Source: Myxococcales bacterium (lineage in GTDB: Bacteria; Myxococcota_A; UBA9042). Taken from it: a stretch of DNA of 36,491 nt. The stretch lies in NCBI GenBank assembly GCA_002726535.1, contig PBTG01000078.1, positions 1 through 36,491 of the forward strand, in the 5' to 3' direction. Below are positions 667 through 17,215 of the stretch, one piece after another. Position numbers and translations under genes: made by a program. The notes under the pieces were generated by a model that made no database searches, was not told the DNA's origin, and saw nothing but the letters and a program-made list of their open reading frames with translations. Positions within the stretch are counted from its first letter, which is position 1. Each line of letters begins with the position of its first letter.

Positions 667-1659
667 TCATCCTTGTTTGAGCCAGCGAGCAGCTTGCCGC
701 GCGTAATAGGTCAAGATCGCATCCGCACCTGCGCGTCGAATCGCCAGCAACGACTCCAAGGCGACGGAGCGCTCATCGAGCCAACCCTTGGCGCTCGCAG
801 CCTTTAACATGGCGTACTCACCGCTGACTTGGTACGCAGCAACCGGCAGCTGCGTGGCTTGCCGTACCTGAGCGATGACATCTAGGTAAGGCCCGGCCGG
901 CTTGACCATAACCATATCAGCGCCCTCAAGCTCATCGAGCTCAAGCTCGCGGAGAGCCTCTCGACTGTTGGCCGGGTCCATTTGATAGGTCTTTTTGTCG
1001 CCGGATTTCGGCGCCGAGTCCAATGCGTCTCGAAAGGGACCATAAAATGCGGAGGCGTACTTGGCCGTGTAGCTCAAAATAGACACGTCCGTGAAGCCAT
1101 GAGCATCCAAGGCCGAACGAATTGCGCCCACCCGACCGTCCATCATGTCAGAGGGCGCGATGATATCGGCGCCAGCCTCAGCCTGGCTAAGCGCCTGTTT
1201 GCATAAAATCGCTACGGTCTCGTCATTGAGAATGCGGCCGTCTGGCGCCACCAATCCATCATGTCCTGCCGATGAGTAGGGATCGAGCGCGACATCGGTG
1301 ATCGTCATGAGTTCGGGAAATTCGACCTTCAATCGTCGCAGAGCCCGCTGAACCAAACCCTGCGGATTGTAGGCTTCTTCAGCGCCGAGAGTCTTGAGCG
1401 ACTCTGGCGTCGCTGGAAAGAGCACGATAGCACCGACGCCGTCTTCGAGCGCCCCCTGCGCCTCACGCATCAAGCCATCCATATCCAATCGCGCACATCC
1501 CGGCATCGAAGCGATGGGAATGTCTCCGGTGCCGTCGTGGATAAAAAGTGGATAGATGAAATGCTGTGAGGTGAGCCACGACTCTTGAGCAAAGCCCCGA
1601 ATGACGGGGTTTCGACGGTTGCGCCGTGGGCGATGAGGTAGATCGAGTTGGTCGGTCAC
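667..1659 (-). CDS. hemB: Delta-aminolevulinic acid dehydratase (porphobilinogen synthase)
   Basis: Full-length HemB features: RNPVIRGFAQES, FPLFIHDG-like start, DVALDPYSSAGHDG, APSDMMDGRVGAIR, YTAKYASAFYGPFRDA, MVKPAGPYLD. GTG start with AGGAG six nt upstream. Confidence 0.95.
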   Translation of the reverse strand: MTDQLDLPHRPRRNRRNPVIRGFAQESWLTSQHFIYPLFIHDGTGDIPIASMPGCARLDMDGLMREAQGALEDGVGAIVLFPATPESLKTLGAEEAYNPQGLVQRALRRLKVEFPELMTITDVALDPYSSAGHDGLVAPDGRILNDETVAILCKQALSQAEAGADIIAPSDMMDGRVGAIRSALDAHGFTDVSILSYTAKYASAFYGPFRDALDSAPKSGDKKTYQMDPANSREALRELELDELEGADMVMVKPAGPYLDVIAQVRQATQLPVAAYQVSGEYAMLKAASAKGWLDERSVALESLLAIRRAGADAILTYYARQAARWLKQG

Positions 1660-3017
1660 AATGAACTCCTAACGTAATGACAGCGGCGCCCAATGAGCAG
1701 CAAAGACGCAAACAAAACAAGCCACATTGTGTCTGCCGGATTGCCGATCGGTTGAGCTTGGCAGCCATCTCTTTTCGCGACAACGACTCCACCGCCTTGG
1801 CCTGCATCGAAGGTCGCATAGGCGCCATCGCTAGCACTGACATCAGCAGAGCCCTGACCATCGCTGACATCCATATCCTGAGATGGCGGCGACAAACAGG
1901 TCGGGTCGCTGGCGAGACTATGGGTCTGACGTGTCTGCTCCCACTGCGGGACACAGAGCGTAGCGCACGTCGATACCTTGGCCACCGAACCAAAACAAAG
2001 TGCAGCAGACCAAGACTTGCCCTTGTCAGTCGAACTCATCAATGCCGCGCCGTTGATGAACTCATCTGAACAGCCATACACCTCAGCGCCGAATCGACGT
2101 AGGCAGCCCACTCTGGGAGCATCTGGCACGAGTGAGAACTGCTGTCCTCCATCTGTGCTCCGCCAAATGCCAGCGGACATACTGCCGACCAACAAGGTCC
2201 CAGAGGCTTCATCTGCGAGCCACACCGCCTCGGCGATATCCTGACCTGGTTTGGGGGCAAACGCGGCCTGCCACGAGGCCCCTGCGTCCACACTCATCCA
2301 AAGCTGATCCAACCCCATCGCAGCACGGACACGGAGCACCAACCACGTCGCTTGCTTGGGGTGACGGGCTAAGGCGGTAAATTTCGCATCAGGGATCCCG
2401 GTCTTCGGGAGCGCGTTGACCGTCCATGAATCGCCGCCATCACTGGACAGTAGACTGATGGGCTTGTCTGCCTCGCCCGTGACCCACAAATCTTGTAGAC
2501 CAGGACCAGCACGGAGCGAGCTCAGCGCCTGATTGGCTGGACTCTTCAACTCTACCCAGCCCGCTGCTTCGCGGCGAAGCAGCGCTGCGGGCTCTTCGGT
2601 CCGCACCCAGAGTGCAGCATCGGTCGAGACCAACTCAACCACTTTACCAACCTCTGCAGGCAGGGTCTCCTTCGTCCATGTGCAGCCCTCATCACTAGAC
2701 CGAGTCAATAGACCGTCATCGAGAATAAAGAGTCCTTGGGCATGAGCGATGACCACCCTATCTAACGCTTGTCCATTGGAGCCAAATGAATCGGGACAAA
2801 TCCACTCAGCGCTCAACTGACTGTTGGGTTGGCGAATCAGACCAAAAGACATGGTCACATAGCGGTTGCCTTTGGGACCCACTGAGACGCTATGAGCGGA
2901 GGTCACTAGGCTGTGAGCCGATACTTCGGCGCTGTGATGGACGGACAAAACCACCACCAAGAGTCCAACGATACGAAGCACTTGCATCAAACCTGATTTG
3001 GGCTCTCTGAACATCAT
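1656..3017 (-). CDS. Secreted BNR/sialidase-like beta-propeller protein with C-terminal hydrophobic sorting-like tail
   Basis: N-terminal signal-peptide-like segment; repeated Asp-box-like motifs (TRSSDEGCTW, SSDGGDSW, SVDAGASW, STDGGQQF, STDKGKSW); C-terminus DGCQAQPIGNPADTMWLVLFASLLLIGRRCHYVRSSL (Cys, TM, Arg pair). Confidence 0.7.
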   Translation of the reverse strand: MMFREPKSGLMQVLRIVGLLVVVLSVHHSAEVSAHSLVTSAHSVSVGPKGNRYVTMSFGLIRQPNSQLSAEWICPDSFGSNGQALDRVVIAHAQGLFILDDGLLTRSSDEGCTWTKETLPAEVGKVVELVSTDAALWVRTEEPAALLRREAAGWVELKSPANQALSSLRAGPGLQDLWVTGEADKPISLLSSDGGDSWTVNALPKTGIPDAKFTALARHPKQATWLVLRVRAAMGLDQLWMSVDAGASWQAAFAPKPGQDIAEAVWLADEASGTLLVGSMSAGIWRSTDGGQQFSLVPDAPRVGCLRRFGAEVYGCSDEFINGAALMSSTDKGKSWSAALCFGSVAKVSTCATLCVPQWEQTRQTHSLASDPTCLSPPSQDMDVSDGQGSADVSASDGAYATFDAGQGGGVVVAKRDGCQAQPIGNPADTMWLVLFASLLLIGRRCHYVRSSL

Positions 3018-3064: not shown

Positions 3065-3991
3065 TCATGCTCCGGGTTCAGTCATACATTTGGGAGCCTC
3101 TGCCAACGTGGGTCTGCCCGCCCAGAGACCGCGCCCCAACCCCGCTTGGATACCCACACGAACATAGGTAGGCAAAGCAAAACAAGCCCTAAGTACGTCG
3201 CGATTGAGGTATCGAAGACAGGGCTCTACACCCGCTACCCGATCGATATCGACCCTCACCGAAGGCAAGCTAGGGCCTTGTGTGGCCGCACAATACGACC
3301 ATGTCCCGCTTGGATAGGCGGCGACCTGTCCCAGATAGAGGTCAACCGACGCGAACACCTGGCTCAACTTGCTGTGCACTGCCCGAACGCGATCGATATA
3401 AAAGGTCGGTGAGTCACTCTGAGCGACGAGCACCCCCTGAGCACCGAGTAGTTGAGCACAGTCGCGATAAAATGCCTCGCTGAAAAGCTCAACAGCGGCA
3501 TCAACCGGGTCGGTAGAGTCGATCAAAACCACATCAAAGACAGCTCCTTGAGCTGCGCTCCGCCGAACATAATCAACGCCGTCCCCGACAATCACTTGAG
3601 CCCTTGGATCGTCAAAGGCGCGCGCTAGGTCTGGAAAATAGGTCTTTGCGCACCGGATCACCTGCGGATCAATGTCCACCAATACCGCTTCTTCCACCTC
3701 TGGGTGTCGCAACACCTCCGTTAAGGTGCCGCCGTCACCACCACCGATGATCAGCACCCGACGAGGATTGGGGTGACTCAGCAGGGGCACGTGAGCGATC
3801 ATCTCATGGTAAGCCGACTCATCTCGATCTGTGACGTTCGTCACACCCCCCAAGCACAACACTGTGCCCCAGTCTTTCGCCTCAAAAACGTCGATCTGCT
3901 GAAATTCACTGCGAAAGCTCTCATGCATATGCACCACCTCGTAGACCAAAGTGGTGTTGGGCGTCCATGGATCGCGGTACTGGGAACTCAT
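3065..3991 (-). CDS. speE: Spermidine synthase (polyamine aminopropyltransferase)
   Basis: Motifs VFEAKDWGTVLCLGGVTNVTDRDESAYHEMIAHVPLLSHPNPRRVLIIGGGDGGTLTEVLRHPEVEEAVLVDID; AGAGG upstream of the ATG. Confidence 0.93.
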   Translation of the reverse strand: MSSQYRDPWTPNTTLVYEVVHMHESFRSEFQQIDVFEAKDWGTVLCLGGVTNVTDRDESAYHEMIAHVPLLSHPNPRRVLIIGGGDGGTLTEVLRHPEVEEAVLVDIDPQVIRCAKTYFPDLARAFDDPRAQVIVGDGVDYVRRSAAQGAVFDVVLIDSTDPVDAAVELFSEAFYRDCAQLLGAQGVLVAQSDSPTFYIDRVRAVHSKLSQVFASVDLYLGQVAAYPSGTWSYCAATQGPSLPSVRVDIDRVAGVEPCLRYLNRDVLRACFALPTYVRVGIQAGLGRGLWAGRPTLAEAPKCMTEPGA

Positions 3992-4050
3992 CGTGATGCC
4001 TCTTTCGATATTGTCGTCGGAGCCTAAAGTAATTGTGCTCTAGTTTGGCT

Positions 4051-4093
4051 CCAAAAACACAAGAGCCAGAGACATAGGTCTCTGGCCCTTGTG
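4051..4093 (-). terminator. Intrinsic terminator of the giant lipoprotein gene
   Basis: CACAAGAGCCAGAGAC (4058-4073), loop ATAG, GTCTCTGGCCCTTGTG (4078-4093): 16-bp stem with one mismatch. On the minus strand it is followed by TTTTTGG (4057-4051), about 20 nt past the stop codon. Confidence 0.9.
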
Positions 4094-4112
4094 TGGTCCA
4101 CGTTGTGCGCCC

Positions 4113-7100
4113 TTATTGACAAGTCTGGCACGTCGACCCAGAGCAAGCATTCGCTTTGGCTCCGGTCGCTGAGCAGCAGTCACCGTAATTCTTGCACAGG
4201 TTGTCACACCAACAACTAAAGGTTGTGTTCTGACCACCACAAGAGCCGTCACAAGGGTGGGGCTTCTTACAGTCCTTTTCGCAGTTGGCCAGAGTCTCAG
4301 TCGGATCACAGGTGCCGTTACCGCACACAGGCTTGCAATCTTTGATGCACGTAGAAGGCGTCTCAAGGCCTTCACATTTGCCATCACCACACACCGTCGG
4401 GATCGGCTGCAGGACCTTGACCAAGGTGCTCTGCGTCGCGATTGTCTTGTTATCGCCGTTGCCGCCGTAGGTCCCGTACCCTGTGCACCAGACGTCGCCT
4501 TTGTTGGTCAGAACGCAACCTCCTCTGTAGCGAGTCGTGACCTGAATCACGTTGGTTCCATTGGTGATCTTGACCGGTGCGAGACTCGTAGTCGTGGTGC
4601 CGTTTCCGAGTCCACCGCTTTGGTTGTATCCCAGCGCGTAAGCTTGGCTGTCAGACTTGAGGAAGTACGTGAGGTAATAGCCCAAATCGTATTGCCAGAG
4701 ACCAGAACCGAGAGGTTTCATCTGTACGGCTTTGATCTCTTTACCGTACGTCCCGCCGGCCGAAAGCTTGCCCAGACCGAGTGCTCCGTGAGGATTGTAG
4801 CCTTTCGCCCAGGCATTGCCCTTGTCATCGAGAGCGCCCAAAGCGTACGAACCGGCTGTAATCATCGAAACAGGAGGGAAATCAGTGATTTTCACTGCAT
4901 TGATGACATCAGCCGTGTTCGAGCTCAAAAGATTGTTGTAGTAGTTGTAGCCCCAACACATCACTGAGCCAGATTTGGTCCGACCACAAGAGAAACTCTT
5001 ACCTAAGCTAACTTGAACGATGTTCGAAACGTTCTTGGTCTGCGTCGGCACCTTGAGGTCCACACTAGACGCAACACCATTGCCTACTTGGCCATCGGTG
5101 TTGCGGCCCCAGCACCAGACTGTACCGTCGGTTTTAACCGCGCAGGTATGGTAGTCGCCGCAATCGACAGAATCGACCCCTTTTAAGACCAATGCTGGTT
5201 GTAAGGCAGTGGCAGTTGCATTGTTGCCAACCTGTCCATCGGAGTTGTAGCCCCAACAGTAAAGAGCCCCATCCTCTGCAACGGCACAAGAGTGATAGTA
5301 CCCGCCGCTGACTTGCTTGATTCCAGCCAGCCCAGCGACCTGGACAGGGACCTTCTCTGAGGTCGACGTCGAGCCTTTACCGGTCTGGCCATAGTTATTT
5401 CGGCCCCAACAGAACACTTTCTTACCTGTAGTGACCGCGCAGGTGTGATAGCCGTAGTTGTGTGAATCCACCTGCTTGGCCCATCCGCTGGTCAAGGGGC
5501 CGCAAGCCCCAGCCTTACACACCGAACTCAGACCGCATGCGGCGCCGTCATTGCCGGCGATCTGCTTGCACTCACCGAGCGCAAGATCACACGTGTCCTT
5601 CGTGCAAGGCTTGCCGTCATCACACTCTGTATCTTGCTTGCAGGTCCATTTGCAGTTGGCAATCGGAGTCGAGGAGCAGCCGCCAGTCTTGCTGTCACAT
5701 AGATCGACTGTGCACGGGTTCTTGTCATCGCAGCTGACTTTTCCGAGTTGTTTACACTGGCCCGCTTCGCAGACTGGATCGAAGGTACATCCATTGCCAT
5801 CATCGCAATCTTTGGGTTTCGCAACACAAACGCCAGCCTGGGAGCATGCGTCTCCCGTGGTGCACGGATCTCCGTCATCGCAGAGCTTGCCGACGGTCGG
5901 AATGATGTTGCATTGGGCGGTGACGATGTCACACGTGTTCGCGTAACAGCCCTGGCCCATGTTGCACTCGGCGTTGGACGAACATGCGCCATCAGCCACA
6001 CGGGTCCAAACCTGAGCGTTCGCAGTTTTGCCATTTCCAAGTGCGCCATAGAGGTTATAGCCAACGCACCACACAGAGCCCGTTTTGTGCAGAGCGCATG
6101 TGGAGCGATATCCAGCACTAACCTGGATGCTGTCCTTCGGAGCCACCAAAGGAGCTGGCGTGGTTTGGTCGATAGCAGAGCTGGCACTTTTCGTGCCGTT
6201 GCCGAGTTGACCGTAGTAATTGTCACCCCAGGTGCTGATTGTCGCACTGGTACTCAAGGTTACTGCGTGATCTAAACCACCGCTGAACATCGCGACATCT
6301 TTAACTTTCGCCACGTACACATCGGCAGCTGAATCTGTCGGTGTCTTCGAACCGATACCCAACTGTCCGTTATTGTTCTGGCCAATACAGTGCAGTTCCC
6401 CTTTGAGGGACACCACACAGGTATTCTGGTTGCCCACGCCAAGCGAGACCGCTTTGGGGAACTTGGTCACTTTGGTCACGGCGATGTCTGCGGTGGAAGC
6501 AGTCGTCATCGCATTTGAATATAGATTGTAGCCCCAGCAGTAGGTCTCACCCAACTTGCTCAAAGCACAGTAGTGACCGTTACCGCCATCGATGGCGACC
6601 ACATCTGCCACGTTCGCGTCGACCGGCAAGGATGACGAACTCGAGGTCAATGACTTCGAACCCAACTCTTTGTCAGAGTTGCGCCCCCAACACTTGACCC
6701 CGCCTTGGAGATTGACTGCGCACGTGCTGTAGTTCGTCATCGCGAGGGTGACCGCTCCGCTTAGTCCTTTGACCTCTACAGGTGAGGTCGAGTCGGTCGT
6801 CGAGCCATTTCCAAGCTGGCCATACAAGTTGTCACCCCAACACATCACCTTGCCGCCGGTGACGATTGCACAACTGTGCAAGTAGCCGACAGCCACGGCG
6901 GTCGCGTTTGTGACCTTTTGCACAGCAACAGGCACGGAGCTGCTGGTCTTTAGACCATTGCCCAACTGACCGTTGTTGTTGTAGCCCCAGCAACTCACCG
7001 TTCCCTTTGGTCGGAGTACACACGCGTGACGTGCGTTGGGATGCTGAGCGATCTGCGTCGCGAAGCCTGTAATCTGCAGCGACTTGCAAGCGCCGGCGGT

Positions 7101-10100
7101 GCACACCTTGCTTAGCCCGCAGATCGCGCCTTCATTGCCGGGAGTCCACTGGCACAGCCCGTTGACACATTTGTCAGCGGTGCACACTTGGTTGTCGCTA
7201 CATCCAGCATCATCGGTACATTTGACCACACAGGGCGCGACCTTGCTGTGCGTGCAGTTGCCGTTCTTGGTGTCGCAAGCGTCTGTGGTGCAAGGATTGC
7301 CATCGTCACAGTTGGCGTTCTTTACGACGAAGCATTTTCCGCCTTCACAAGCCTCTTCGATGGTGCATGGGTTGCCGTCATCGCAGACTTTCGCTGTCTC
7401 TTGGCAGATGCCGTCTTTGTCACATTTTCCGTTCGACGTGCACTTGTCGCCATCATCGCAGAACACGTTCGTGTTAACGGTCATTGAGCAGAGCCCTGTG
7501 GAAAGACTGCACTGCTGCTTTGTACAAGTATTGTCGTCTTTACAGAACGCGTCGGTTTGACAAGCGCCGTCAGCGACGTGCGTCAGTCGGGTCTTTTGGC
7601 CCGTTGTGCTTGTGGAGCCCCCACCCAGGGATCCGTAAAGGTTGGAACCTGTACACCACACCGAACCATCTGCTCTAAGCACGCAAGTGCGGTAGTACGA
7701 AGCGCTGACTTGCACGATATTGCTCACCCAATCCATGGGGCTTGGGATGCTTTTGGAGACTTTGGTGCCGTCGCCCAACTGTCCATATTGGTTTCGGCCA
7801 ACCGAGTAGGCCACTCCATCGTTCGAGAGCCAAACGCCATGGCTGAGACCGCCGCTGTATCCGATTACAGAAGGCAAGCCCTTCGGGTTGACGTATCCGG
7901 GTGTTGGAGAGCTTGTATTGACCCCAAGCTGATTGTACCCGTTGTTGCCGATGCACTCAGCGACGCCCTTGAAGGTGATGCCGCAGATGGTGCGGTTGCC
8001 GACGAAAGCCGAGGACCACTTCGAAGTTCGGCTGTCACGAACTGGACTCGAAAAGCTAAATGTTTCCGGAGCTTTGGCGATCAAATTGTCGTTACGTCCC
8101 CAACACCACTTGCTGCCATCGGAGCGAATGGCACACGACAGGTTGAGGGCCGTGAAAATGCTCACCACATTCGACATCCCTTCGATCTTGGCAATCGTAC
8201 CGCTATCGCTACCTCCGGACTGTCCATCGCTGTTATTGCCCCAACAGACCACCGTCTTGTCTTTGCGCAACGCACAGGTGTGGTTGTATCCAGCACTGAC
8301 TGCGATCGCGTCGGTGATCCCTTTGGCGGCGGTCACAGGCACTTTTGAACTGGTCGTCGTGCCCTCGCCCAGTTGGTAAGAGCTGTTGTAACCCCAGCAA
8401 TAGATTTTGCCTTGCTGATCGACCGCGCACGCGTGTTGATAGCCCGCCGAGATGTCGATGATGTTTTTCAAATCTTTAACCGCGACTGGCTTGCCGCTGG
8501 TAAGATTGGTCCCATCGCCGAGCTGCCCATAGTTATTGCGGCCCCAGCAAGCCACGCTCTTGTTCTTGAGCAGGGCACAGTGGAAGTTACCGTTGCTGTA
8601 GGCGCTGAGTTTGACTGCCCAACCATCAACCGGGTTAACGGGTGCGCACCCTCCTTTAAGGCAGGTAGATCCGACACCACAGACGGTCCCATCTTTGGCT
8701 GGTGCAATGTTACAGGATCCAGTTTTCACATCGCAGGTGTTCGCAGTGCAAAGGTCTGTGTCTGCGCAATCGGAGTCACTCTTGCAGGTAATCTTGCAAC
8801 CTTGAATCACATTATGAGTACAGAGTCCTGATTTGGTGTCGCAGAGATCAGCGGTGCAAGCGTTGCCGTCGTCACAATTGGTTTTGTCACCAGCGAAGCA
8901 GATGCCGTCTTTGCATTTGTCCCCTAGCGAACATGCGTTGCCGTCGCTGCAGAGATCTGTGTTGGTCGCAAACTTACAAAACCCATTTACGGGGTCACAC
9001 GAATCATTGGTGCAAGCGTTGCCGTCGTCGCATTTCGTGACGCCCGCACATTGAGCTTTTTCATCACAAACATCACTGCTTGTACAGGCGTCTTCGTCGT
9101 CGCAGGCCTTGCCTTTGGCCGGAGCTCCAACGCACTTCGCAGAGAGATCGCACTTATCTGGCCCAGTGCAAACCTGTCCATCGTCGCAACTTTTGCCCCC
9201 AGAGACGCTGCCTTGGCACTTGGCGTCTTTGTCACAGGCGTCTTTCATGGTGCATTCGTTGCCGTCGTCACAGGTGGCTCCAAGCAATGGAGTACCAACG
9301 CAGGCGCCCTTATCGTCGCAAGAATCTTTGGTGCATTCGTTGCCGTCGTCACAGGCCTTACCAACCCAAGGAGTGCCAGCACACTTGCCATCCTTGTCGC
9401 AAAAGGAGTTGCTACACGGGTTGCCATCATCACAGGGCGCACCAAGATTTGGTGAGTTGGTGCATTTGCCGGTCTGCACATCGCAGACACCTTTGGTGCA
9501 CGCATCGCCATCATCACAGCCCGCAAAGGAACAGTGCACATCGCTGACCGACAACGCATCGATGAAGGGACCGATACCGTCATTTTGAACGCAATCTGTG
9601 GTCTTGAAGGTAAAGCGAATCTGAATCGTTTTGCCGATGAAGGCCTTGAGATCGTAGCTCATCGGTTTCCAGGTCGCGCTCCCATTTAAGGTAGCCAACT
9701 GGGTCGCCTGCTTGGACACGACGTCGACGACCTCAACGACCAGATCGTCATAGGTGTTGGACTCCCAATCACCCGCGTAGTTGAAGGTAAGCGCGGGTGA
9801 TAGCGCCCCAACGATGGCGATCTCAGGTGACGTGGCTGTGCCCTCTACCTTGGCGCCGCCAGGCTGGCAGTTAAAATCAGTGCCATTGTTAAAGTTCAGA
9901 CTGCAGTCGAACACTTCGGATTGAGGTTTGGCCGGTGTTTTATCAACCGCCCAGACAGGACCGAGTGCGCCCTTGGACAAGGTCCACGCCTGCGAGGCTT
10001 CGCTGCCGCATTTGAAACCGACCTGGTATGGAAATTTCACCTTGTTCTGATTGCAAGGGCTGACTGCCTTAGGCAGACCACAACCAACCTTCGGGTCACA

Positions 10101-11825
10101 AAGCTCGGGCTCGGTCGTACAAATGTTGTCATCATCGCATCCGACCTCGACTGCATCGCAGCCTGTGCCCGCTACGCAGACATCCAGCGTACAGGGGTTG
10201 CCGTCATCGCAGGTCTTGTCTTTGCCCTTGCAGGAGCCCTTATCGCAGGCGTCGTTTAGGGTGCAATCGTTGCCATCGTCACACTTTTCACCGTCTTTGA
10301 CTGCAGTGTTCGAGCACGTGCCCGTCTTCTTGTCGCAAGAGTCAGTAGTGCATGCATTGTTGTCATCACAGTTTTTCGGATTGCTTAGGCTGCATTGACC
10401 ATCTTTGCAGGTGTCGTCGCTAGTGCAGGCGTCGCCATCGGTACAAGGCAACGCATTTTTGAGAAACTGACAGCCTTTGGATTTCTCACAAAATTCAGTA
10501 GTGCAAATGTTGCCATCGTCACAGTTTTTGGCCGTCGAGATGCATTTGGTGTCTTTGCATGTGTCTATGGTGCACGCGTCGCCATCGGTGCAAGTGACCG
10601 TATTGGGTAGATTGGCGCAGCCTTTGGCGGGATCACAGCTGTCGTCTGTACAGATGTTGTTGTCATCGCAGCCAACCTTGCTACCAACACAAGACCCGCC
10701 GGAGCACATCTCGTTTTCCGTACAAGCGTCCGCATCATCGCAGGTCACCTTGTTGGCCAAGTTCACACAGCCCTTGGCTTTGTCACAGCTATCGTCAGTG
10801 CATACGTTGTTGTCGTCGCACTGCACCGCAGGGCCAACACACGCACCGGACTCACATTTGTCATCTTTGGTGCACGCATCGCCGTCATCACAATTGGCGC
10901 TGTCATCATTGGTTACCGTACAGCCAGCTGGACCGCCGCAGGCATCTTGAGTACATGGGTTGCCGTCATCGCAGAGCGAGCCATTGTCAGCGGTGCCGTC
11001 GCAATCTTGGTCTACACCGTCGCAGGTCTCAGCCTGGGGAGTTGCCGGCTCGCATGCGCTCAACCCTTTGTCTTCGCAGCTTCGGGTTGCTTCGCAGCCA
11101 GGAAGCCCATCAGCGTAACAACTGGTCGTCAGCGCTTTGAGCTTAGCCCAGCCGTTGCAGGTACACTCAGCGTCTTGGTTTGGCAGGCAACGCTTGGCCT
11201 CTTTGCCAGCGACGTCCTTGCTGTCAACGCAGGCGTACCCTTCAGCACAATCCCCATCAACCGCGCATGCCGTCGAGCAAAAACTTCCGGTAGCGCCGCG
11301 ATCAACACAAGCACCATCGGTAGCGCCAGGCACGTCGCAGTGCGCGTTGGTCAGGCAGGGTGAACAGGTCGCTACAAATGGGTCGACGCAGAATTTCGCG
11401 CTCGCCAAGTCGGTGCAAACCCCGTTTTCACAGGTGTCTTTGTCATCACAAGGGACCGCACAACTCGATTTGCCATCCGCGCCGAGCACACAAGGTCCAG
11501 ATGAGCATTCACTATCTTCTTTACATTCACAGCCAGGCGCTCCAGGGCAGGTAGGAGCAGCGTCAGGGCTCGAGGCGTCCTGCTCGGTGCTGCTGTCTGA
11601 GGCGGTGGTGTCGAAGTTAGAGCTATCAGCCGATGTGGTGTCCTGGCCGGTCGAGGTGTCATCGACAACCGATGTGTCCTCTGATCCAGAGGTTTCCCCT
11701 TGCGACACGGTATCGCTCGATTGCTCATCATCAACGGGAGCCTCTCCACAACCTGCAAATAATAGCGTTGAAGTGGTGAAAGAGACGACCAGTAGCGATG
11801 AAAAATAACGAGACATTGCCCTCAT
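4113..11825 (-). CDS. Giant modular lipoprotein (~2570 aa): CTDC-like Cys repeats, MopE-like motif, three RCC1-like propellers, CGNGxC repeats, somatomedin-B-like C-terminus
   Basis: Single uninterrupted frame. Preferred start is M35 of the track ORF, because AGGAGG lies 5 nt upstream of the ATG at 11825-11823. Lipobox in MRAMSRYFSSLLVVSFTTSTLLFAGCGEAP. Repeats are directly visible in the translation. Confidence 0.93.
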   Translation of the reverse strand: MRAMSRYFSSLLVVSFTTSTLLFAGCGEAPVDDEQSSDTVSQGETSGSEDTSVVDDTSTGQDTTSADSSNFDTTASDSSTEQDASSPDAAPTCPGAPGCECKEDSECSSGPCVLGADGKSSCAVPCDDKDTCENGVCTDLASAKFCVDPFVATCSPCLTNAHCDVPGATDGACVDRGATGSFCSTACAVDGDCAEGYACVDSKDVAGKEAKRCLPNQDAECTCNGWAKLKALTTSCYADGLPGCEATRSCEDKGLSACEPATPQAETCDGVDQDCDGTADNGSLCDDGNPCTQDACGGPAGCTVTNDDSANCDDGDACTKDDKCESGACVGPAVQCDDNNVCTDDSCDKAKGCVNLANKVTCDDADACTENEMCSGGSCVGSKVGCDDNNICTDDSCDPAKGCANLPNTVTCTDGDACTIDTCKDTKCISTAKNCDDGNICTTEFCEKSKGCQFLKNALPCTDGDACTSDDTCKDGQCSLSNPKNCDDNNACTTDSCDKKTGTCSNTAVKDGEKCDDGNDCTLNDACDKGSCKGKDKTCDDGNPCTLDVCVAGTGCDAVEVGCDDDNICTTEPELCDPKVGCGLPKAVSPCNQNKVKFPYQVGFKCGSEASQAWTLSKGALGPVWAVDKTPAKPQSEVFDCSLNFNNGTDFNCQPGGAKVEGTATSPEIAIVGALSPALTFNYAGDWESNTYDDLVVEVVDVVSKQATQLATLNGSATWKPMSYDLKAFIGKTIQIRFTFKTTDCVQNDGIGPFIDALSVSDVHCSFAGCDDGDACTKGVCDVQTGKCTNSPNLGAPCDDGNPCSNSFCDKDGKCAGTPWVGKACDDGNECTKDSCDDKGACVGTPLLGATCDDGNECTMKDACDKDAKCQGSVSGGKSCDDGQVCTGPDKCDLSAKCVGAPAKGKACDDEDACTSSDVCDEKAQCAGVTKCDDGNACTNDSCDPVNGFCKFATNTDLCSDGNACSLGDKCKDGICFAGDKTNCDDGNACTADLCDTKSGLCTHNVIQGCKITCKSDSDCADTDLCTANTCDVKTGSCNIAPAKDGTVCGVGSTCLKGGCAPVNPVDGWAVKLSAYSNGNFHCALLKNKSVACWGRNNYGQLGDGTNLTSGKPVAVKDLKNIIDISAGYQHACAVDQQGKIYCWGYNSSYQLGEGTTTSSKVPVTAAKGITDAIAVSAGYNHTCALRKDKTVVCWGNNSDGQSGGSDSGTIAKIEGMSNVVSIFTALNLSCAIRSDGSKWCWGRNDNLIAKAPETFSFSSPVRDSRTSKWSSAFVGNRTICGITFKGVAECIGNNGYNQLGVNTSSPTPGYVNPKGLPSVIGYSGGLSHGVWLSNDGVAYSVGRNQYGQLGDGTKVSKSIPSPMDWVSNIVQVSASYYRTCVLRADGSVWCTGSNLYGSLGGGSTSTTGQKTRLTHVADGACQTDAFCKDDNTCTKQQCSLSTGLCSMTVNTNVFCDDGDKCTSNGKCDKDGICQETAKVCDDGNPCTIEEACEGGKCFVVKNANCDDGNPCTTDACDTKNGNCTHSKVAPCVVKCTDDAGCSDNQVCTADKCVNGLCQWTPGNEGAICGLSKVCTAGACKSLQITGFATQIAQHPNARHACVLRPKGTVSCWGYNNNGQLGNGLKTSSSVPVAVQKVTNATAVAVGYLHSCAIVTGGKVMCWGDNLYGQLGNGSTTDSTSPVEVKGLSGAVTLAMTNYSTCAVNLQGGVKCWGRNSDKELGSKSLTSSSSSLPVDANVADVVAIDGGNGHYCALSKLGETYCWGYNLYSNAMTTASTADIAVTKVTKFPKAVSLGVGNQNTCVVSLKGELHCIGQNNNGQLGIGSKTPTDSAADVYVAKVKDVAMFSGGLDHAVTLSTSATISTWGDNYYGQLGNGTKSASSAIDQTTPAPLVAPKDSIQVSAGYRSTCALHKTGSVWCVGYNLYGALGNGKTANAQVWTRVADGACSSNAECNMGQGCYANTCDIVTAQCNIIPTVGKLCDDGDPCTTGDACSQAGVCVAKPKDCDDGNGCTFDPVCEAGQCKQLGKVSCDDKNPCTVDLCDSKTGGCSSTPIANCKWTCKQDTECDDGKPCTKDTCDLALGECKQIAGNDGAACGLSSVCKAGACGPLTSGWAKQVDSHNYGYHTCAVTTGKKVFCWGRNNYGQTGKGSTSTSEKVPVQVAGLAGIKQVSGGYYHSCAVAEDGALYCWGYNSDGQVGNNATATALQPALVLKGVDSVDCGDYHTCAVKTDGTVWCWGRNTDGQVGNGVASSVDLKVPTQTKNVSNIVQVSLGKSFSCGRTKSGSVMCWGYNYYNNLLSSNTADVINAVKITDFPPVSMITAGSYALGALDDKGNAWAKGYNPHGALGLGKLSAGGTYGKEIKAVQMKPLGSGLWQYDLGYYLTYFLKSDSQAYALGYNQSGGLGNGTTTTSLAPVKITNGTNVIQVTTRYRGGCVLTNKGDVWCTGYGTYGGNGDNKTIATQSTLVKVLQPIPTVCGDGKCEGLETPSTCIKDCKPVCGNGTCDPTETLANCEKDCKKPHPCDGSCGGQNTTFSCWCDNLCKNYGDCCSATGAKANACSGSTCQTCQ
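4405..5492 (-). repeat. RCC1-like propeller block 3 (seven repeats, within the giant gene)
   Basis: CWGRNNYGQTG, CWGYNSDGQVG, CWGRNTDGQVG, CWGYNYYNNLL, AKGYNPHGALG, ALGYNQSGGLG, CTGYGTYGGNG. Boundaries approximate. Confidence 0.85.
6005..7078 (-). repeat. RCC1-like propeller block 2 (seven repeats, within the giant gene)
   Basis: CWGYNNNGQLG, CWGDNLYGQLG, CWGRNSDKELG, CWGYNLYSNAM, CIGQNNNGQLG, TWGDNYYGQLG, CVGYNLYGALG. Boundaries approximate. Confidence 0.85.
7590..8632 (-). repeat. RCC1-like propeller block 1 (seven repeats, within the giant gene)
   Basis: CWGRNNYGQLG, CWGYNSSYQLG, CWGNNSDGQSG, CWGRNDNLIAK, CIGNNGYNQLG, SVGRNQYGQLG, CTGSNLYGSLG. Boundaries approximate. Confidence 0.85.
10060..11010 (-). 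repeat. Dense CTDC-like Cys repeat region (CDDGNxCTxDxC), within the giant gene
   Basis: Consecutive units such as CDDGNPCTQDAC, CDDGDACTKDDKC, CDDNNVCTDDSC, CDDNNICTDDSC; further units at about 8690-9530, 7090-7570 and 5500-5990. Boundaries approximate. Confidence 0.85.
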
Positions 11826-11967
11826 AGCATCCTCCTGCCAGCGGATTTTAGGCCCTTCAACGGACAAAAACCGCGACGTTACAGGTATCAGTGCAATATT
11901 CTGAGGCTTTTTGCAACTCGAGCACACAGTTTTTCAATAACAAATAAAAAATAAAAACACAATAATA

Positions 11968-13125
11968 TTAAATATTTAGTGGGTTTTTACTCTCACCTTT
12001 TGGGCTTTTAAAAGCGACCTGGACCCAAAACGCGGCGACGACGGCGACGCCTGCAGCCAACAAAAAGAGGCCGCGGAGCGCACCGGTCCCCTCTAAGGTC
12101 GTTGCACTCAAGAGCATCACCAAAGGGCCAAGCCCGGCCGCAGAGGCCATCAAAGCAGACTGGGCAGAATTTCGAGCCTGCTCTGGCACGTTATCGCTGA
12201 GCCAAGCGATAGCTCCCATCCAAAAGGCGCCAAAGGTCACGCCATGGGTGAACTGCACGGCCGTAATCAGCAGAGGGTCCTCAACAGCACCTGTTATCAA
12301 AAAGCGTGGAATGCAAACCCAAATGGCCAAGCGCATCATGCCCACTGCTCCAATACGCCGGAGCAACCAGCCAGACAGACCCATCACCGTCACCTCAACG
12401 GTCAACCCGCCGATGAAAGCCGCTGTAGCATACGATGTGGGAGCGCCAAGCTCGGCCATGTACAGCGAAAACAAGAAATCGTAGGCAGCGTGCATCGTGC
12501 CCAGAAGGCCGCCCAAACCGATTACTGCGGCGACTTTTTTGTCCTTAAATACAGATCGTAATTCACTAAACCCAGCCAATCGAGCCTGGAACTTGGCTTG
12601 AGGCAACGACCACGTCCACAGGGCGCACAAACTCAGCAATAAGGCGTTAATCAATAGCGGCGTGTCGACGACCTGGTCGATCTGAGTGCCAACGCCAAAC
12701 ACCATTGCCGCAAAACAAACCGAGCCCCACATCCTGACGCGACCATACTCAGCGGCTCCTTGGTCAAGGGCCGCGACGGTCAGAGCGTCAACCAAAGGGA
12801 TCATCGGCGCCCGACTGAGCGCGAGCAGCGCAAAACTCACCACCACAATGACCCAATTGTCCGTCATCGCAGCAACAATCGATGACAAGGCCGCCAAGCA
12901 TGCCGCGCCTCTCAGCCAGCGTTCAGGTCTTTCGCTCCGGTCGGTCAGATAGCCCCAAAGCAACCCTGCACTCAAAAAACCGAGCGGGAATAGGGTCAAG
13001 ATCGCCGCTGTCTCGGAGGCGGATGCTCCACGCTGCGCTAGAGTGCGGGCCAAAAAAGGATGCAAGGCGCCGAGGCTGCCAATGGCCATCGTGTACCAAA
13101 GAGCGAGCCGAAAACTCGGTGACAT
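11968..13125 (-). CDS. MFS transporter (MFS_1-like / nucleoside or phenylpropionate permease-like)
   Basis: About 12 hydrophobic segments; WYTMAIGSLGALHPFLARTLAQRGASASETAAILTLFPL, GLLWGYLTDRSERPERWLRG, EYGRVRMWGSVCFAAMVFGVG. Confidence 0.85.
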   Translation of the reverse strand: MSPSFRLALWYTMAIGSLGALHPFLARTLAQRGASASETAAILTLFPLGFLSAGLLWGYLTDRSERPERWLRGAACLAALSSIVAAMTDNWVIVVVSFALLALSRAPMIPLVDALTVAALDQGAAEYGRVRMWGSVCFAAMVFGVGTQIDQVVDTPLLINALLLSLCALWTWSLPQAKFQARLAGFSELRSVFKDKKVAAVIGLGGLLGTMHAAYDFLFSLYMAELGAPTSYATAAFIGGLTVEVTVMGLSGWLLRRIGAVGMMRLAIWVCIPRFLITGAVEDPLLITAVQFTHGVTFGAFWMGAIAWLSDNVPEQARNSAQSALMASAAGLGPLVMLLSATTLEGTGALRGLFLLAAGVAVVAAFWVQVAFKSPKGESKNPLNI

Positions 13126-13136
13126 ACGTGAGAAAT

Positions 13137-14525
13137 TCAGAGTTGAGCCTCAGTGCTTACGCCAGCACCCCACCAGGGTGCTTTCGAACCACTAAAACCT
13201 TGCAGGCTTTTGCCTTTTCCTGATTTTTCGTCGATCTCCCAAACGTTCGTGTTGCTACTAAAGCCATAAAACACGCCGCCCCACCAAGCCAGACCCCACA
13301 AGTTGTTGGCACCGATGACTCCAAGATCACTGATGACCTTGCCGGTCTTTGGGTTGACTTTGACGAGCACATCTTCAGAGACGCCCGACTTTTTCACCGT
13401 CGCGTAGGTGCCGACGCCCAAGACGCTAAAGGCGTCACCACTGGAGCTGTAACCGCTGCCATAGCTACCGAGCTTAATGACTTTGTTATTGATCAGATCG
13501 ATGTGCCACCACCCACCATTGTTGGCGATCCCGATCAAAGCATCTTGGCTGGGATAGACCGTCCCTTTGTGTACAAAAGTCAGTCCATTGAACTGAGTAG
13601 GTAACTTCATCACCCAGCTGCATGAAGCGGTTTGTGTCTTGCATTTGAAGAGATCAGTGAAAGTCACCGCATACATGATGTTGCTGCGATCCAAGGCAAT
13701 GTCAGTCACCAACCCCTTAGACTTGTTGAAAGTGAAGGTCCCAACCAATGAGAAGCTCTTGGTCTTGAGGTCCAGTTTGTACAGCGCGCTGCTGGTATGT
13801 GCGAACAACGTCCCGACACTGACGCATACGCCCGCCTCGCAGGTCTTTGTTTGCCCGCAGGGCGTTTGATCAACAGCCTGACTGGAGACGCAGCCTTTGA
13901 CGGGATCGCAAGAATCATCGGTACACAAGTTGCCATCATCACAATTGGGGGCTGTTCCTTTGCAGAAACCATCGCTGCATACGTCATTTTCGGTGCACAT
14001 CGAATCATCATCACAGGATCCCGTCTTTGCGACGAAGGAACACCCTTTACTCGGATCGCAAGAAGCGATGACGCAGGGATTGGCCGAGGAACAATCCAAA
14101 GGGGTTGAGCCGACGCATTTCGAAGCGCTGCACTGATCCTCCGTGGTGCAAGCATCGCCATCATCACAGCTGAGTGATTCTGCGACGGGTTGATGCTGAC
14201 ATTGGCCCGCTGCGCAGGTGTCCGTCGTGCATGGGTTGTCGTCGTCACATTGGCAGTTGCCTACATCTGCGCCAGTTGAGTCTGCTGCGTCTGAGGTGAC
14301 AGAGTCTTCGGATACACCGCCGTCAGAGACAGCTGCATCACTGCTCTCGCTTGCGTCGGCGACATCGACAGCGCCACTGTCGACGTTAACAATCGCGATA
14401 CCATCGTCTTGCTGAGTATCTAGAGACGATTCAGTGCCACAGGCGAAAACAAGCATACACAGCAACAAGGACGACGAAGTCTTAAGATATCTGTTGATCC
14501 GTGAAAGAGCGTATGCAAAGCGCAT
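13137..14525 (-). CDS. Lipoprotein with CTDC-like Cys repeats and a C-terminal propeller-like domain
   Basis: Start at M28 of the track ORF: AAGGA upstream of the ATG at 14525; lipobox SSSLLLCMLVFACGTES; CDDDNPCTTDTC, CDDGDACTTEDQC, CDDDSMCTENDVC, CDDGNLCTDDSC; then LYKLDLKTKSFSLVGTF..TDIALDRSNIMYAVTF repeats. Confidence 0.85.
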   Translation of the reverse strand: MRFAYALSRINRYLKTSSSLLLCMLVFACGTESSLDTQQDDGIAIVNVDSGAVDVADASESSDAAVSDGGVSEDSVTSDAADSTGADVGNCQCDDDNPCTTDTCAAGQCQHQPVAESLSCDDGDACTTEDQCSASKCVGSTPLDCSSANPCVIASCDPSKGCSFVAKTGSCDDDSMCTENDVCSDGFCKGTAPNCDDGNLCTDDSCDPVKGCVSSQAVDQTPCGQTKTCEAGVCVSVGTLFAHTSSALYKLDLKTKSFSLVGTFTFNKSKGLVTDIALDRSNIMYAVTFTDLFKCKTQTASCSWVMKLPTQFNGLTFVHKGTVYPSQDALIGIANNGGWWHIDLINNKVIKLGSYGSGYSSSGDAFSVLGVGTYATVKKSGVSEDVLVKVNPKTGKVISDLGVIGANNLWGLAWWGGVFYGFSSNTNVWEIDEKSGKGKSLQGFSGSKAPWWGAGVSTEAQL

Positions 14526-14594: not shown

Positions 14595-15539
14595 ATGAGC
14601 GGACACTTTTTTGATCAGACGACCATCCCCGTCATCGCCGCACCCATGTTTTTGGTCTCACAACCCAAACTGGTCGTCGCCTCGTGTAGAGCTGGGATTA
14701 TCGGCACTTTTCCTGCACTCAACCACAGAACCACCGAGGGCTTTGATCAGTGGCTGACGGATATTGAGTCAGCCCTAGAGCAGAGCCGTAGAGACGATCC
14801 AGACGCGATCATCTCGCCTTACGGCGTCAATTTGATCGTCCACCGGACCAATCCCCGGGTGAAGGCGGATCTGGAGGTGATCGTCAAACACAAAACACCT
14901 CTGGTGATCACTTCGCTTGGTGCTGTGAAAGAGGTCGTCGACGCAGTGCACAGCTACGGCGGTAAAGTATTCCACGACGTGACCAACGTTCGGCATGCAA
15001 AAAAAGCGATCGGCGCTGGAGTCGACGGATTGATTCTGGTGACCGCTGGAGCAGGTGGTCACGCAGGCACCCTGTCGCCCTTCGCACTCCTGCCAGAAAT
15101 TCGAAAGATTTTCGACGGCACCATCTGTTTAGCAGGTTGCATCTCCGACGGAGCAGCAGTCGCATCGGCCAGAGCCCTTGGCGCTGACTTTGCCTACATG
15201 GGAACTCGCTTCATCGCCGTTGAAGAAGCCAACGCGCCTGACAACTACAAGCAGATGATTTTGGAGACTTCAGCCAAAGATATCATTTACACAGCAGCCA
15301 TCTCAGGCATACCAGCCAGCTTCCTTGCGCCAAGTTTGGTCGCCGCTGGCATCCGCCTAGAGGATCTCCCTGCACACAAAGAGATCAACCTAGGTGAAGA
15401 GCTCGACACCGAATCCAAGGCCTGGAAGGACATTTGGTCGGCAGGACAGGGCGTCGGCACCATCGACGATGTGCCGACGGTGGCGGAGTTGGTCTCCCGA
15501 TTCAAAGCACAATACCTACAAGCCAAGGCCCGGGTGTGA
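14595..15539 (+). CDS. Nitronate monooxygenase / 2-nitropropane dioxygenase family
   Basis: PVIAAPMFLVSQPKLVVASCRAGIIGTFPALN, GVDGLILVTAGAGGHAGTLSPFALLPEIR, ALGADFAYMGTRFIAVEEA; GGATAGGAG upstream of the ATG. Confidence 0.92.
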   Translation: MSGHFFDQTTIPVIAAPMFLVSQPKLVVASCRAGIIGTFPALNHRTTEGFDQWLTDIESALEQSRRDDPDAIISPYGVNLIVHRTNPRVKADLEVIVKHKTPLVITSLGAVKEVVDAVHSYGGKVFHDVTNVRHAKKAIGAGVDGLILVTAGAGGHAGTLSPFALLPEIRKIFDGTICLAGCISDGAAVASARALGADFAYMGTRFIAVEEANAPDNYKQMILETSAKDIIYTAAISGIPASFLAPSLVAAGIRLEDLPAHKEINLGEELDTESKAWKDIWSAGQGVGTIDDVPTVAELVSRFKAQYLQAKARV

Positions 15540-15568
15540 TCAAAGCGCAGGGCTTGCAGATACACAGG

Positions 15569-17215
15569 ATGTCTACCCTGGCTCTATTTGGCAGCAGACT
15601 CACCGTGATGGCGGCGCTCAGTGCGATTGCCAGCGTCGTTGTCGCCAGCCCACCTCGACATGACCGACTGCCAACTGGGCCTCTACGACTCAGCCCGTCA
15701 CGACCAGCAGATCGACTTCCTTCACATGTAGAGACCGCCTCTGGCCGACTCAAGCGCCCGGCAGATCGAGGTGTCTTTCAGATTTCAACGCCCACACACA
15801 ATCAACAGCGTTTCGACGACCGAACCGAGCGAGAGGGACGTCTAGAATATGGTGTCGTCTTCGAACCCACCATTGCCCCTTTCAAGAGAAGCTATTGTTT
15901 TGAACGTGTCGATGCCAATGGACAGCTACGCCGGGCGCTCAATGCGGTACCAATCGAAGCTCGAGGGGGTCCAGATCGACTCCATCATGAGTTATTTTGG
16001 GGAGCCATCCGGGTGCAATTGGAGCCAAATCAAAGGGTCACGCTGCCCTCGGTATCGCCCTCGTCGAGACTGATCGCGTGGGTCAGTGAACCCAAAGTCA
16101 AGCTACAGATGTTTCGAGACGCCAACGGCATCTGGTCGGTATCGTCACCTCAAGAGCACAAAGCGGTCAGCCTTCGGTATCTGATGGATGCGCCTTCTCG
16201 ATATTTCGGGAGCCCTTTGGGCTCAGGAGTGACTCATTTAGACCCTTGGAAACCGAAGCTGGCCCAATCCTTTCAAACCAAAGTCGAGGCCTTGTGGCCT
16301 ACCCTGGGGCTGTCGACGCAGCTCGATCGCAAAGAGCGTATCGAGGCGCTGACACGTTGGTTTCGATCCTTTGAACCCGGAGGGACATCGAGCGGTCGAG
16401 ATCTCCTACAAGTGATCGCGCAACGTCAGGGAGTCTGCCGACACAGAACACATGGCTTTGTTGTGGTCGCCCACAGCCTCGGCATCTCAGCCCGTTACGT
16501 AGGTAATGAAGCCCATGCTTTTGTAGAAGTGTGGGTACGTTTCGCCGACGCACGCGAAGGTTGGCTGAGGATCGATTTAGGCGGTGGCGCCGAGCAACTC
16601 CACCTTCGCGCGACAGGACGGCGAAATCTGCATCGCCCACTGCAGTCTGATGCGTTGCCTAAGCCGATTGCATTTCGAAGTCACATCGGCCGAGTTGCTG
16701 GTGCATTGTCCATGGCTGGTGCAAGCAAAGTGACGATTGATCATCCTGTTCAAATGAATACAACCCCAAAAGGCCACCTCGTCGGTACGCCGACCCAACC
16801 TCGCATTTTGTCGTGGATCGAACATCGGGCACGGAGGCTTGCCGGACAAAAGATCCGTGAGTTGAGTGACCCACGTTCGGTCAGTACCTTAACGATTCAA
16901 GGGCCTGAAAAGGCTTGGAGAAGAGGGGGGTTGAAGGTCCGTGGACAACTCAATGGCCCGGCTCAATCACTGCCAAAGCAACGAATTGAGCTGTGGCTAA
17001 TTTCTCCCGTCGAGCCCACCAAGGCGATCCATGTAGGATCGATGAAAACGGGCGCACAAGGTCATTTTCAAGGTCAAGTGAGACTGGATAGGCGCGTCGG
17101 TCTTGGCCCATGGGATCTCGTTGCATATTTCGCAGGTTCTCCTCAGCTTGCAGCCTGTTATTCTCAAAGCCCAAAGCACTCAAAATCCAGCGGTGATGAG
17201 GCGGCTCGTAAGTGA
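15569..17215 (+). CDS. Exported transglutaminase-like domain protein
   Basis: Transglutaminase-core Cys/His/Asp pattern: RQGVCRHRTHGFVVVAHSLGISARYVGNEAHAFVEVWVRFADAREGWLRIDLGG; signal-peptide-like N-terminus MSTLALFGSRLTVMAALSAIASVVVASPP. The track ORF start at 15434 overlaps the upstream gene, so an internal start is preferred. Confidence 0.82.
   Translation: MSTLALFGSRLTVMAALSAIASVVVASPPRHDRLPTGPLRLSPSRPADRLPSHVETASGRLKRPADRGVFQISTPTHNQQRFDDRTEREGRLEYGVVFEPTIAPFKRSYCFERVDANGQLRRALNAVPIEARGGPDRLHHELFWGAIRVQLEPNQRVTLPSVSPSSRLIAWVSEPKVKLQMFRDANGIWSVSSPQEHKAVSLRYLMDAPSRYFGSPLGSGVTHLDPWKPKLAQSFQTKVEALWPTLGLSTQLDRKERIEALTRWFRSFEPGGTSSGRDLLQVIAQRQGVCRHRTHGFVVVAHSLGISARYVGNEAHAFVEVWVRFADAREGWLRIDLGGGAEQLHLRATGRRNLHRPLQSDALPKPIAFRSHIGRVAGALSMAGASKVTIDHPVQMNTTPKGHLVGTPTQPRILSWIEHRARRLAGQKIRELSDPRSVSTLTIQGPEKAWRRGGLKVRGQLNGPAQSLPKQRIELWLISPVEPTKAIHVGSMKTGAQGHFQGQVRLDRRVGLGPWDLVAYFAGSPQLAACYSQSPKHSKSSGDEAARK

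Follow-up and report, generated by a model that had tools for sequence, protein, structure and literature searches.

The minus-strand gene at 4113..11825 encodes a 2570-aa lipoprotein in which CTDC repeat arrays are interspersed with four globular modules, namely a jelly roll and three RCC1-like propellers, before the chain closes with a small Cys-rich end. On balance we favor the reading, drawn from its sequence and from structural models, that this giant protein is a surface-exposed outer-membrane lipoprotein acting as a multivalent binding protein. Every module is of a known family, and the arrangement of anchor, CTDC stalk, jelly roll, and three propellers is conserved, with fixed four-unit CTDC linkers, across two genera. 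We found this arrangement undescribed in the open literature searched: among reports on CTDC and RCC1 in bacteria, no paper describes the architecture of the giant protein. Positions are those of the window (the whole 36,491-nt stretch of DNA analyzed), and all features of the gene lie on the minus strand.

Gene structure and domain architecture

The frame runs from an ATG at 11825 to a stop at 4113-4115 with no internal stop in its 2570 codons, and the gene call is backed by this intact frame, by Pfam, and by orthologues. A plus-strand reading of the same interval was rejected, with its many stops. An earlier note on this DNA, which gave the coordinates correctly without stating the strand, had proposed an uninterrupted frame of ~2570 codons with its own ribosome-binding site and terminator; both proposals hold. 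An AGGAGG (11831..11836) precedes the ATG by 5 nt, and a Rho-independent terminator hairpin of 17 bp followed by a U-run was identified by folding at 4057..4094 (71-nt stretch, -34.3 kcal/mol, z -4.9 vs. shuffles). A simple sigma-70/terminator pattern scan of 3900-4200 gave no match, yet folding shows the hairpin clearly. Rfam has no match anywhere in the window, and NCBIfam likewise gave nothing. A broken frame or an assembly artefact, which the earlier note had considered, can be set aside: the frame is unbroken, and because four full-length orthologues keep the same domain order, both an artefact and a fusion of genes are ruled out.

The protein begins with a signal peptide and lipobox LLFAGC (residues 1-26; 11748..11825), called by inspection and a simple pattern and also present in the orthologues, with the lipid Cys at residue 26. 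The Ser/Thr/Asp-rich tether that follows (residues 27-92; 11550..11747) was recognized by its composition: residues 25-92 contain 26 Ser/Thr and 17 Asp/Glu and not a single Lys or Arg. In the orthologues the tether has low identity and the same composition. Next comes a Cys-rich domain without a Pfam family (residues 93-262; 11040..11549), which is 48-59% identical in orthologues. The MopE-like motif ETCDGVDQDCDGTADNG noted earlier is present (residues 263-284; 10974..11039), but it scores below the Pfam cut-off for the Cu-binding MopE motif (PF11617; 23.5 vs. 27 bits). Once mature, the protein contains 232 cysteines, and its net charge is about -99.

Four stretches of CTDC repeats, delimited by Pfam and motif counts, make up the presumed stalk. 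Array I has 12 units (residues 285-603; 10017..10973) and array II has 10 (residues 769-1065; 8631..9521); linkers III (residues 1431-1587; 7065..7535) and IV (residues 1941-2113; 5487..6005) have four units each. The number of units in array II varies across orthologues (4-9 in the others, thus 4 to 10 overall), whereas both linkers are constant at four units in every orthologue. Dicty_CTDC (PF00526) matches the protein over 13 stretches with 192.3 bits against a cut-off of 27 (E 7.8e-58). By one pattern we count 29 CTDC motifs and by a looser one 30, in line with the approximately 30 units first claimed; the strict motif occurs 24 times, whereas 500 shuffled sequences gave 0.002 on average. 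A regular unit has ~24 residues, with four Cys at +1, +7, +12/13, and +18/19. In array I (9980-10973, residues 285-562 and following) the spacing of the third Cys largely alternates between 12 and 13, a pattern that suggests a possible two-unit super-repeat of about 50 residues. AlphaFold models the array upstream of the jelly roll with moderate confidence (pLDDT about 50-77), and for this reason a rigid-rod shape remains only a proposal.

The insert between arrays I and II (residues 604-768; 9522..10016) is a jelly roll of the MAM/CBM type: profiles, AlphaFold, and Foldseek all support what had been described as a probable jelly roll. Its core is modeled at pLDDT about 83-96, and its Foldseek matches are CBM4, CBM61, and the MAM domains of meprin and neuropilin (E about 3e-7 to 9e-6). 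A PDB-profile search matched immune inhibitor A (E 1.6e-5), and InhA-like MAM (PF20773) scores 26.8 bits against a cut-off of 26.9, with the fold in agreement. The insert shares its fold with the jelly rolls of immune inhibitor A MAM, CBM4, and CBM61, at about 14-17% identity.

The three RCC1-like blocks reported from the sequence are well supported. Pfam finds WD40_RLD (E 8.1e-176), RCC1_2 (E 6.1e-123), and RCC1 (E 4e-100), the RCC1 repeats exceeding the Pfam cut-off, so that the RCC1 and CTDC assignments of the earlier note both have family support. Propeller C (residues 2114-2460; 4446..5486), modeled from an alignment of 33 modules, has seven four-stranded blades with pLDDT mostly 90-98. 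Its best Foldseek match is UVR8 (TMt 0.89, rmsd 2.0), followed by RPGR, HERC2, and RCC1; the propeller sequence profile likewise reaches UVR8 (E 4e-62), as well as ACR4 and BLIP-II. From their sequences and Pfam matches, block A (residues 1066-1430; 7536..8630) and block B (residues 1588-1940; 6006..7064) are predicted to be propellers of the same kind. In each propeller, five or six blades carry Cys pairs on adjacent strands, and the blade or blades preceding the last one lack such a pair. These paired cysteines, together with the total of 232, suit an oxidizing, extracytoplasmic location.

Beyond propeller C lie two CGNG/CGDG Cys repeats (residues 2461-2524; 4254..4445), evident in the sequence and matching the CGNGxC repeats reported earlier, and a somatomedin-B-like end with eight Cys (residues about 2525-2562; 4140..4253). 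The latter assignment, also made in the earlier note, is clear in the orthologue from the other genus, L037 (PF01033; 40.1 bits, E 4.6e-10), and weak in the window copy, which scores 18.7 bits against a cut-off of 23.1; when the tail was shuffled 20,000 times, the eight-Cys pattern turned up in 11 cases. The model of the tail has pLDDT below 50. Among the five full-length copies, only the window copy and L037 have the CGNG/SMB tail. Since it is absent from three of the four orthologues, the SMB end is not essential. The proteins of the three congeners end after propeller C, and their downstream frames hold no remnant of the tail, which rules out its loss by frameshift. Further somatomedin-B-pattern segments were seen in L053 (two in tandem), L055, and L037.

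Orthologues, gene neighborhood, and the CTDC repertoire

Searching the jelly-roll insert across 36 related genomes led to four full-length orthologues, three in congeners (L034, L035, and L036; 49%, 51%, and 47% identical) and one in another genus (L037; 41%). All four have the identical domain order, so the comparison with related genomes that the earlier note proposed comes out in its favor. The stalk is more alike than the heads: in the three congeners linker IV is 56-59% identical and propeller A 36-46%, and conserved Cys and Asp account for part of the higher stalk identity. In a tree of 15 propellers, all C propellers form one clade (99/98), the A and B propellers of the genus each form their own group, and A and B of L037 pair with each other. 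The C clade and the separate A and B groups indicate that the propeller triplication predates the genus.

Comparison with relatives shows two conserved neighbors upstream, both on the minus strand: an MFS_1_like transporter gene (11968..13125) and, 11 bp from it, a gene for a small CTDC lipoprotein of 462 aa (13137..14525). The small lipoprotein comprises four CTDC units, and its C-terminal domain, which we would guess to be a propeller, weakly resembles DUF6923/DUF4394. The protein is 58-66% identical in G002 and G014, where the order small lipoprotein, MFS, giant gene recurs; in G002 the divergent NMO gene is kept with it as well. In G001 the giant gene is immediately preceded by the MFS gene, and in G003 the contigs end between the two, consistent with adjacency. 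The conserved cassette suggests joint expression. Among 35 relatives the MFS gene (E <= 1e-20) is found only in the three congeners, G009, and G014; it adjoins the giant gene in the window genome (G000), G001, G002, and G014, but in G009 no CTDC frame lies beside it, which weakens its standing as a constant companion.

Two other genes of the window may be recorded here. A minus-strand gene at 1656-3017 encodes a 453-aa protein with weak BNR/sortilin-like repeats, whose C-terminal Cys, hydrophobic stretch, and Arg pair resemble by eye a MYXO-CTERM tail. A plus-strand gene at 15434-17215 encodes a transglutaminase-core protein with a 37% homologue near the L037 orthologue.

The giant protein is one of many CTDC proteins in its genome. 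In the assembly (2.72 Mb, 67.5% complete) the 150 CTDC matches with the best scores account for at least 38 CTDC frames, the longest of 3011 codons; stop-to-stop, these frames comprise 43,402 codons, or about 4.8% of the assembly. The window and 20 further contigs (L044-L063) contain 26 frames with three or more CTDC units, and by eye nearly all of these that have a readable start show a lipobox and a D/S/T-rich tether. In three of the contigs (L046, L052, and L055) CTDC frames contain NHL-like repeats, another propeller type, again judged by eye; SMB ends also occur in some of the CTDC frames. Only one RCC1 gene was found in this genome, compared with 34-55 RCC1-like matches in the congeners, a difference that genome incompleteness may explain in part.

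The modules are also widespread beyond this genome. CTDC matches occur in all 36 sampled genomes of the class, 35 of which have at least 42 (first-look candidates number up to 2400 per genome), and in 118 of 189 genomes of the phylum; outside the class, 82 of 153 genomes have matches, mostly few. Of the 36 relatives, 32 have RCC1-like propellers and 35 have sequences matching the CGNG/SMB-type tail. The label "eukaryote-like modules" under which these parts were originally described is thus misleading: since the modules are widespread in a bacterial class, it refers to the names of the families and not to the origin of the protein. One possible picture, which we put forward tentatively, is a proteome-wide system in this class, in which CTDC-stalk lipoproteins bear interchangeable heads (RCC1, NHL-type or other propellers, jelly rolls, and SMB ends); it would be a modular repertoire for surface recognition exceeding the CTDC matrix families of social amoebae, and within it the giant protein and its cassette would be one specialized receptor.

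Proposed function and alternatives

In the reading we favor, the lipid would fix the protein to the outer membrane, with the tether extending it beyond the layer at the cell surface. The CTDC arrays would act as disulfide-locked stalks and spacers, and the propellers and jelly roll would be binding heads for polysaccharide, protein, or neighboring cells. A surface binding protein is the most likely interpretation because a lipid anchor, a disulfide-type stalk, and known binding folds are combined in one chain. A role as surface adhesin or scaffold, as the earlier note suggested, appears plausible from the sequence, and two findings strengthen it: nearly all CTDC proteins of the genome bear a lipobox, and the heads diverge more than the stalk. 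The lipobox would be compatible with a periplasmic or inner-membrane location as well as with the surface. An inward-facing periplasmic lipoprotein serving as an envelope scaffold would fit, since the side of the membrane cannot be read from a lipobox alone; a chain of such length, with a jelly roll of the CBM/MAM type and an extreme number of cysteines, seems better suited to an exposed position, and we consider the inward orientation very improbable.

The main rival is a matrix or vesicle component, released on vesicles or by cleavage of the tether, that cross-links the matrix between cells. The CTDC proteins of Dictyostelium and other amoebae are matrix proteins (PMC4931340), an RCC1 repeat protein has been found in outer membrane vesicles of Myxococcus (PMC4158809), and there are many CTDC proteins in a single genome; but the lipobox on nearly all CTDC proteins with a readable start argues for anchoring to the cell, and we regard release as unlikely. 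The heads might instead capture polysaccharide or another substrate whose product the MFS transporter of the cassette imports. The resemblance of the jelly roll to carbohydrate-binding modules and the restricted distribution of the MFS gene beside the giant gene are in keeping with such nutrient capture; it is nevertheless rather improbable, given that hydrolase domains are absent both from the Pfam matches of the giant protein and from the annotated neighbors, that the cassette is without an outer-membrane porin, and that the MFS gene of G009 has no CTDC frame beside it. The data point to a surface repertoire in these bacteria that is large, so far unstudied, and might control how they attach or recognize.

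Comparison with known systems

The seven-bladed fold of propeller C is shared with the RCC1-like superfamily, which includes UVR8, HERC2, RCC1, bacterial BLIP-II, and plant ACR4. In contrast to these, the giant protein is predicted to be lipid-anchored and extracytoplasmic and has Cys pairs in most blades; Ran guanine exchange is not expected outside the cytoplasm. RCC1-like repeats are also present in myxobacteria, which are presumed to share the phylum of this genome: in proteins of Haliangium, for which 15 RCC1-repeat genes have been noted (PMC3035250), of Plesiocystis, and in MXAN_0889 of Myxococcus, but the papers that we found on these proteins describe neither a linkage to CTDC repeats nor the three-propeller order.

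The nearest functional analogy is TraA of Myxococcus, whose Cys-rich repeats have been proposed to serve as a stalk that presents a recognition domain at the cell surface (PMC6372800). This is an analogy and not a relationship, the repeats being likened by description: TraA has a PA14-like variable domain, a MYXO-CTERM motif, and no RCC1 repeats, whereas the giant protein has RCC1 propellers, no PA14 match in Pfam, and an SMB-like instead of a MYXO-CTERM C-terminal end.

In the repeats themselves the closest counterparts are EcmA, EcmB, and the other Dicty_CTDC (PF00526) matrix proteins of Dictyostelium, which likewise carry a signal peptide followed by Cys-rich CTDC repeats in tandem; both the amoebal and the bacterial proteins constitute a lineage-specific family of secreted proteins, although the amoebal ones are without the bacterial lipobox. 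To our knowledge, none of them has a three-propeller arrangement. Dictyostelids and Physarum have 7-17 CTDC proteins per genome (PMC4931340, Table 4), compared with at least 38 frames in the partial genome studied here. A repeat named after Dictyostelium is therefore very abundant in a bacterial class, which makes it a testable question where the matrix repeats of the amoebae came from.
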